Below, one piece after another: positions 1-302 of a stretch of 64,000 nucleotides of DNA. The stretch lies in NCBI GenBank assembly GCA_014802435.1, contig JAAVCG010000031.1, forward strand, positions 55,849 through 119,848, read 5' to 3'. This stretch comes from Bacteroides sp. (lineage in GTDB: Bacteria; Bacteroidota; Bacteroidia; Bacteroidales; Muribaculaceae). Numbering within the stretch: the stretch's first letter is position 1; every line of letters begins with the position of its first letter. Below the pieces are notes generated by a model that did not search any database, was not told the DNA's origin, and saw only the letters and a program-made list of their open reading frames with translations. The position numbers and the translations under genes were made by a program.

Positions 1-50
1 CTTTTGCCGCCGTGAGTTGATTTTTTTACTTCTTCGTTTGGATTTTCCAT
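1..50 (-). CDS. N-terminus of a protein truncated by the window edge (MENPNEEVKKSTHGGK...)
   Basis: Minus-strand ATG at 48-50 opens a reading frame to position 1; too short to identify. Confidence 0.35.
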   Translation of the reverse strand, partial: MENPNEEVKKSTHGGK

Positions 51-77
51 AATTATATGTTAATTTTGCAGTGGTTT

Positions 78-250
78 AACCCGAACAAACAAAAGGGCGC
101 CTCCCTGCCAGGAGGTCTTTAAGACTTTAGTCACCCTATTGGATTAGAAAATTGTCAGTGTGATGACCGCAATTTTCAATTTCCAAAGCCTGATTGAGAT
201 TGTAAACTGTATCATAGCTTTGTTTGTTTGGGTTAGGCCTTTCTTTTTTT
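78..250 (+). ncRNA. Candidate structured small RNA or structured leader
   Basis: TAATTTTG -7 box at 62-69, then a 17-bp closing stem 78-94/219-235 (one G.T wobble) enclosing several local hairpins, followed by a T-rich run (241-250). Confidence 0.45.
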
Positions 251-272
251 TCGGCGTCAGGCGTTGTCCCAT
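144..272 (-). CDS. Possible 42-aa small protein (MGQRLTPKKKKGLTQTNKAMIQFTISIRLWKLKIAVITLTIF)
   Basis: ATG 270-272, stop 144-146 on minus; about 15 nt downstream of a start site implied by a minus-strand TAACTTTG box (295-302); basic N-terminus, hydrophobic C-terminus. Confidence 0.25.
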   Translation of the reverse strand: MGQRLTPKKKKGLTQTNKAMIQFTISIRLWKLKIAVITLTIF

Positions 273-294
273 AAATCTCTCTTGATTTACACTG

Positions 295-302
295 CAAAGT
301 TA
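295..302 (-). promoter_or_regulatory. Bacteroidetes-type -7 box (TAACTTTG)
   Basis: CAAAGTTA on + strand; TTG about 20 nt upstream on minus strand. Confidence 0.45.

Follow-up and report, generated by a model that had tools for sequence, protein, structure and literature searches.

A covarying antisense RNA and a conserved minus-strand peptide form a candidate type I toxin–antitoxin-like module in Bacteroidales prophages

The locus

The subject of this study is a compact intergenic segment, positions 37-302 of a 64,000-nucleotide (nt) stretch of contig JAAVCG010000031.1 from Bacteroides sp. (assembly GCA_014802435.1), referred to here as the window. The DNA is a Bacteroidales genome contig, and the segment lies at the end of a prophage, between a gene for a 72-amino-acid (aa) protein on its left and lysis genes on its right. 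On its plus strand it encodes a structured small RNA and on its minus strand a short peptide open reading frame (ORF) that the RNA overlaps in antisense; each strand has its own promoter box, and the 72-aa gene, whose product is probably a ribbon-helix-helix (RHH) protein, lies downstream of the peptide on the minus strand (Table 1). Both the structure of the RNA and the amino acid sequence of the peptide prove to be conserved in a family of such loci, and the arrangement suggests a module akin to type I toxin–antitoxin (TA) systems.

Table 1. Features of the locus, with positions counted from the first letter of the window
Feature	Positions	Strand	Basis
5' end of 72-aa RHH-like gene (N-terminus GG-R-GAGRP; gene L003:9681-9899, extending beyond the left edge of the window); putative co-transcribed regulator	1-50	-	ATG at 48-50; weak Pfam matches, topology
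Plus-strand promoter, TTTG-N20-TAATTTTG, Bacteroidetes type	37-68	+	TTTG at 37-40, TAATTTTG at 61-68
Folded small RNA of roughly 170 nt, a putative RNA antitoxin	73-245	+	Covarying covariance-model family, fold z-score, G.U asymmetry; exact ends inferred
5' arm of closing stem (partner ~220-239)	73-92	+	16/16 modeled pairs covary, 94% of cells paired
Inner hairpin P2 (GGGCGCC..GG, AAGACTTTAGTC)	94-136	+	Fold and covariation, helices 2-4
Inner hairpin P3, overlapping 3' half of opposite-strand peptide ORF	139-186	+	Fold; helices 5-6, all pairs covary
T-run, likely terminator	~240-251	+	Follows closing stem
Peptide ORF, MIQFTISIRLWKLKIAVITLTIF*; proposed toxin	144-215	-	Frame kept in all 31 members; codon changes conservative in no other frame
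Palindromic hairpin of the 5' leader, loop purine-rich, AAATCAAGAGAGATTT (relatives: GTAATCA-AGGAG-TGATTAC)	271-288	-	By-eye conservation in most members
Promoter -7 box TAACTTTG for the peptide mRNA (TTG 20 nt upstream, ~323-325)	295-302	-	Sequence; family recurrence

A family of structured RNAs on the plus strand

BLASTN searches of 148 relatives revealed two tandem copies of the segment in a single genome (G040), adjoining a homolog of the 72-aa gene, and a first covariance model was built from these copies and the window's own sequence. It recovered 17 members, spread over at least 16 of the 397 genomes examined from the same bacterial family, and a second model built from those 17 members raised the tally to at least 23 of the 397. 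Among 393 sampled genomes of the order, the second model found one member in another family and none outside these two families, and among 297 genomes sampled across the phylum it found only the window's own. All of these tallies are lower bounds because few candidates were scored per genome. A search with the neighboring RHH-like protein returned 10 loci on viral contigs and five on genome contigs, and the RNA was present at all 15. With identical copies removed, the family comprises 31 distinct members from Bacteroidales genomes and viral contigs, to which the counts below refer.

The family has no counterpart in the databases that we searched. Rfam, at gathering and at permissive thresholds, gave no match for the window or for the members scanned, detecting only tRNAs in the flanks. 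BLASTN with the locus found no match in phage records and, among plasmids, just a fragment of promoter and leader in common plus one chance match; an exact 20-base pattern was likewise not found in the viral contigs. A 22-bp exact match in another genome (G135, L007) was rejected as a chance occurrence, as it lies inside a gene for a 478-aa protein where there is no credible match to the model.

The plus strand from position 70 to 245 is predicted to fold with a minimum free energy (MFE) of -60.8 kcal/mol (z = -5.3), and none of 200 shuffled sequences was equally stable. Across the 31 members, the compensatory changes that the original prediction had named as a check are found as double changes at 49 of 51 pairs, with 87% of cells paired and no match among 500 shuffles, in an alignment that was itself fitted to the structure. 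Sliding the partner columns by one to three positions abolished this signal. RNAalifold derived no consensus from a plain MAFFT alignment of 16 members but did so from the model-based alignment, which is fitted to the structure. A symmetric rule, under which G.U and A.C count alike as permitted pairs, also recovered the closing stem in nearly all of the original 17 members. As originally predicted, this stem is real, with every modeled pair covarying; only its length needed correction, from 17 bp to about 20 bp in the MFE fold. We conclude that the plus-strand RNA is under selection for its structure.

The orientation of the RNA had been argued from one position in the closing stem that would be G.U in plus-strand RNA and C.A on the minus strand, and this argument extends to the whole family: G.U outnumbers A.C in the closing stem by 42 to 4, compared with 57 to 31 expected after column shuffling. 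The plus strand is favored because G.U pairs only in RNA of that strand. A TAnnTTTG box stands directly before the RNA in 30 of the 31 members, compared with 2.2% of background windows, and most of them have a T-run after the closing stem. The Bacteroidetes promoter consensus is TAnnTTTG with a -33 TTTG (PMC7366714), and boxes of this kind are present on both strands of the segment where they had been predicted, as is every other landmark that the original prediction had named.

A conserved peptide antisense to the RNA

All 31 members carry an ATG-started ORF antisense to the RNA, usually of 16 to 25 codons. A 42-aa minus-strand ORF (144-272) had been proposed here; its frame holds, but its start does not, since the conserved ATG is at position 215 and the peptide in the window is about 23 aa long. 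The ATG at 272 was rejected, as extensions upstream occur in some members only and are not common to the family. The peptides follow the approximate consensus M-x-(L/F)-x-(I/V)-x-(I/F)-(K/R)-(I/V)-W-K-(L/I)-(K/R)-(I/V)-x5-8-(F/L/I), with L014 divergent and L021 and L022 longer at the C-terminus.

Substitutions among 10 close members single out this frame. The mean BLOSUM62 score of changed codons is +1.29 in the ORF frame but lies between -0.4 and -1.6 in each of the five alternative frames, and the ratio of nonsynonymous to synonymous changes is 2.7 compared with 3.6-13.6 elsewhere; stop codons are absent from the ORF frame, number 9 to 29 in four other frames and amount to two in the remaining one. 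Further evidence comes from 14 members that were not used to train the model, which provide a fair test of the peptide because the RNA covariance models are blind to coding. A strict peptide pattern was present on the antisense strand in 13 of these 14 and on the sense strand in none, and it occurred in 0.6% of background windows, a figure to be taken as a guide and not as a formal probability, since the pattern was written after the sequences had been seen. The sole member off the pattern, L059, differs by a WW. These results demonstrate that the amino acid sequence of the peptide is under selection at the protein level. Conservation arising from a larger coding frame, an outcome that the original prediction had allowed for, is ruled out, as conserved coding is confined to the short minus-strand frame.

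The peptides carry a charge of +2 to +5, and their hydrophobic and polar residues alternate, giving many of them a high beta hydrophobic moment but not a high alpha moment. They have no match in Pfam, PHROGs, NCBIfam or the sequences of the PDB, and tblastn against phages gave a best E-value of only 8.

Conservation of both strands bears on two alternative explanations of the RNA. The plus-strand RNA could be a free-standing small RNA acting in trans, or a protein-binding RNA, with the antisense ORF secondary; its strong structure, its own promoter and its T-run are all compatible with such a role. We regard this as very unlikely, given that the antisense peptide is kept in every member and the minus-strand promoter in 23 of 31. 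A retron, or another noncoding RNA associated with a reverse transcriptase, was also among the original suggestions, with a companion gene such as a reverse transcriptase possibly left of the window, and the long inverted repeat that closes the RNA is indeed reminiscent of the msr-msd RNA of retrons. The gene on the left encodes the small RHH-like protein instead, as it does in 25 of 31 members, no reverse transcriptase was noticed in the loci read, and conserved coding on the antisense strand is foreign to retrons, so that this explanation is hardly credible. Among the three options first proposed (small RNA, retron, type I TA-like pair), it is the TA-like pair that is favored by the combination of a folded RNA, a conserved ORF opposite it and a promoter on each strand.

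The predicted minus-strand transcript

A TAnnTTTG box is found at the place of the minus-strand promoter in 23 members, compared with 3.9% of background windows, and a hairpin with a purine-rich loop usually comes next. The same pair of elements, a promoter followed by a leader with the hairpin GTAATC..GATTAC, is found ahead of a ParB-family gene on the Bacteroides uniformis plasmid pBuniCL06T06-1 (L049:2501-2533), and this recurrence supports reading positions 295-302 as a promoter with a 5' leader. Judged from these sequences, the hairpin looks like a wider 5' untranslated region element of mobile elements in Bacteroidales.

The predicted minus-strand transcript would consist of a leader of 65-76 nt, the peptide ORF and then the 72-aa gene, the start of which lies only 16-42 nt from the 5' end of the RNA in relatives. 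Within this transcript, the predicted mean unpaired probability is 0.24 for the region of the peptide start, compared with 0.44 for the transcript as a whole and 0.58 for the start of the RHH-like gene. The peptide start is thus predicted to be sequestered, in the manner of locked toxin mRNAs.

The RHH-like gene as a frequent partner

The gene that had been predicted to start at position 50 proved to encode the 72-aa RHH-like protein and to continue beyond the left edge of the window. The protein has a basic arm, GG-R-GAGRP, and behind it AlphaFold models a short extended segment and then helices at residues 38-46 and 50-69, with a predicted local distance difference test score (pLDDT) of about 92; a Foldseek search with the monomer gave no match. 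Profile matches are weak and below curated cut-offs: the protein of one member (L016) matches RHH_10 with an E-value of 9.5e-5 (23 bits, cut-off 27), others match RHH_1 weakly, FitA-like RHH is likewise matched weakly, and the window's own protein matches no RHH profile. Together, topology and weak matches indicate that the product is probably a ribbon-helix-helix DNA-binding protein.

Six members (L006a, L019, L020, L022, L024 and L060) lack an intact adjacent RHH gene and yet retain RNA and peptide, and the host genome contains an RHH-like paralog near tRNAs (L004:3530-3741, G000:C5) that has neither. We rejected the RHH gene alone as the unit because this paralog stands without the RNA, and for both reasons we view the RNA and peptide as the core of the module and the RHH gene as a frequent partner. 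The paralog keeps the first bases of the gene together with the region of the -7 box (82% identity over 57 nt).

The main rival explanation arises from this partnership. The plus-strand RNA could control the RHH gene by an antisense mechanism, and the peptide, without a target of its own, could be the product of a leader ORF whose translation exposes the RHH start, on the model of the tap/repA/CopA system of plasmid R1. The RHH gene is downstream on the same strand, lacks a recognizable TAnnTTTG promoter of its own between positions 50 and 144 and is linked to the module in most members. Joint control by an RHH protein and an antisense RNA is moreover familiar from plasmid genes such as repB of pMV158. 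Such a leader would need an open frame but not a particular amino acid sequence, whereas here the sequence itself is kept; the six members without an adjacent intact RHH gene, a tandem copy among them, keep RNA and peptide all the same; and the RHH start is predicted to be accessible without translation of the leader. On balance, we judge this explanation unlikely, though deserving of serious weight.

Phage neighborhoods

Left of the window, besides the minus-strand 72-aa gene, are long genes that we interpret as a phage tail region. To the right of the segment, genes follow for a small membrane protein that we take to be a holin, for a phage lysozyme (Pfam E-value 4.9e-39), for an Rz-like protein and for a tyrosine integrase. 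Neighborhoods across the family are phage-like, some of them on viral contigs, and include lysozyme, amidases, integrases and a P22 antirepressor domain. In the window, L016, L021, L023 and L024, the module adjoins lysis genes, which together with the cationic amphipathic character of the peptide raises the possibility of an antisense-controlled phage effector rather than a self-toxin of the TA kind: for example, a lysis aid, a superinfection-exclusion factor or a host inhibitor, produced late and kept silent in the lysogen. Other members adjoin DUF5906, IstB-like or antirepressor genes instead, so that the position of the module is not tied to lysis. The evidence on RNA and peptide fits the TA-like and phage-effector readings alike, and we consider the effector quite unlikely.

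A proposed type I toxin–antitoxin-like module

The interpretation that we favor, with moderate confidence and on the strength of comparative sequence evidence, is a prophage-borne type I TA-like module with a DNA-binding co-regulator. At the level of sequence, the two promoter boxes, selection on RNA and peptide, their antisense overlap and the linkage to RHH genes and phages are established, and from these we infer transcription of both strands, repression by pairing, harm to the cell by the peptide and regulation of both promoters by the RHH protein. The minus-strand promoter would make an mRNA with a 5' hairpin leader and a locked peptide start, encoding the peptide and then the RHH-like protein, while the plus-strand promoter would make a stable folded RNA of about 170 nt with perfect complementarity to both the leader and the entire peptide ORF. 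Duplex formation between the two would block peptide synthesis, and the RHH protein may regulate both promoters.

The likeness to type I systems is one of anatomy, and we do not claim full membership. A candidate toxin ORF selected as protein and an antisense RNA with its own promoter box are both present in the sequence, and a locked toxin mRNA start, which is common though not universal in type I systems, is predicted. The peptide has no homolog in a described toxin family within the protein collections searched above. Type I toxin families are mutually unrelated, and homology to a described family is not a requirement.

Several observations weigh against this interpretation. The peptide alternates like a beta strand, whereas characterized type I toxins are mostly alpha-helical; an RHH gene is not a usual component of type I systems; and the exact minus-strand -7 box is absent from its expected place in eight members. 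In addition, the conserved tryptophan is replaced by glycine in four identical viral contigs (L039-L042; L039:2721-2903) as well as in L054 and L060, variants that are possibly attenuated.

Comparison with known systems sharpens these points. In hok/Sok, aapA/IsoA, bsrG/SR4, Fst and TisB/IstR, as here, a tiny peptide gene is overlapped by a structured RNA on the opposite strand, the toxin start is locked in the full-length mRNA (by prediction in our case) and mobile elements carry the locus. The module differs from them in that its peptide, of putative toxicity, is beta-amphipathic rather than an alpha-helical membrane span, its minus-strand unit includes an RHH-like gene and its hosts are Bacteroidales. 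CopG/RNAII of pMV158 and tap/CopA of R1 likewise combine an RHH regulator, a leader peptide or both with an antisense RNA in a short locus; the present family is without a replication gene, and its peptide sequence is itself conserved. Reviewed type I membrane toxins are mostly transmembrane alpha-helices (PMC8309996), and the known hosts of type I systems were Proteobacteria, Firmicutes and Tenericutes before a cyanobacterial case was described in 2025 (PMC12390103). For Bacteroides, putative pairs are all that has been listed: in Bacteroides thetaiotaomicron, seven unvalidated type I TA-like antisense pairs have been reported (PMC7366714), which, likened by description only, share with our family a host in the Bacteroidota, opposed transcripts and a candidate small ORF.

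The RNA/peptide family is absent from Rfam, Pfam, PHROGs, NCBIfam and PDB sequences as searched. We give somewhat less than an even chance to the broader view that it represents, for the Bacteroidota, a new class of phage peptide systems under RNA control, combining a cationic beta-strand mini-toxin, a covarying antisense RNA and an RHH co-regulator within about 550 bp. If the TA-like interpretation is right, the type I principle would extend to prophages of Bacteroidales, in a dominant gut phylum, and a beta-type peptide would join a field dominated by alpha-helical toxins. Gut phages would gain a mini-toxin and RNA switch amenable to testing in a laboratory strain. Such a module would join RNA and protein regulators and could be the phylum's first type I-like system open to experiment. 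The covariance model and peptide motif can now be used to seek cases that annotation pipelines may miss.

Variation among individual members

Certain members depart from the common arrangement. The two tandem copies in G040 (L006:1091-1275 and 1444-1624) have diverged from each other and each retains its own two promoters and peptide, with the RHH gene adjoining one of them only. Just upstream of the RNA in L020, at the usual start of the RHH gene, is a short frame that begins with MEN and soon ends (MENHHRNVKFI*), possibly a decayed copy of that gene. Two further members that lack the RHH gene, L019 and L024, have in common a G+C-rich inverted repeat around GGGAACCACCC, upstream of the RNA.
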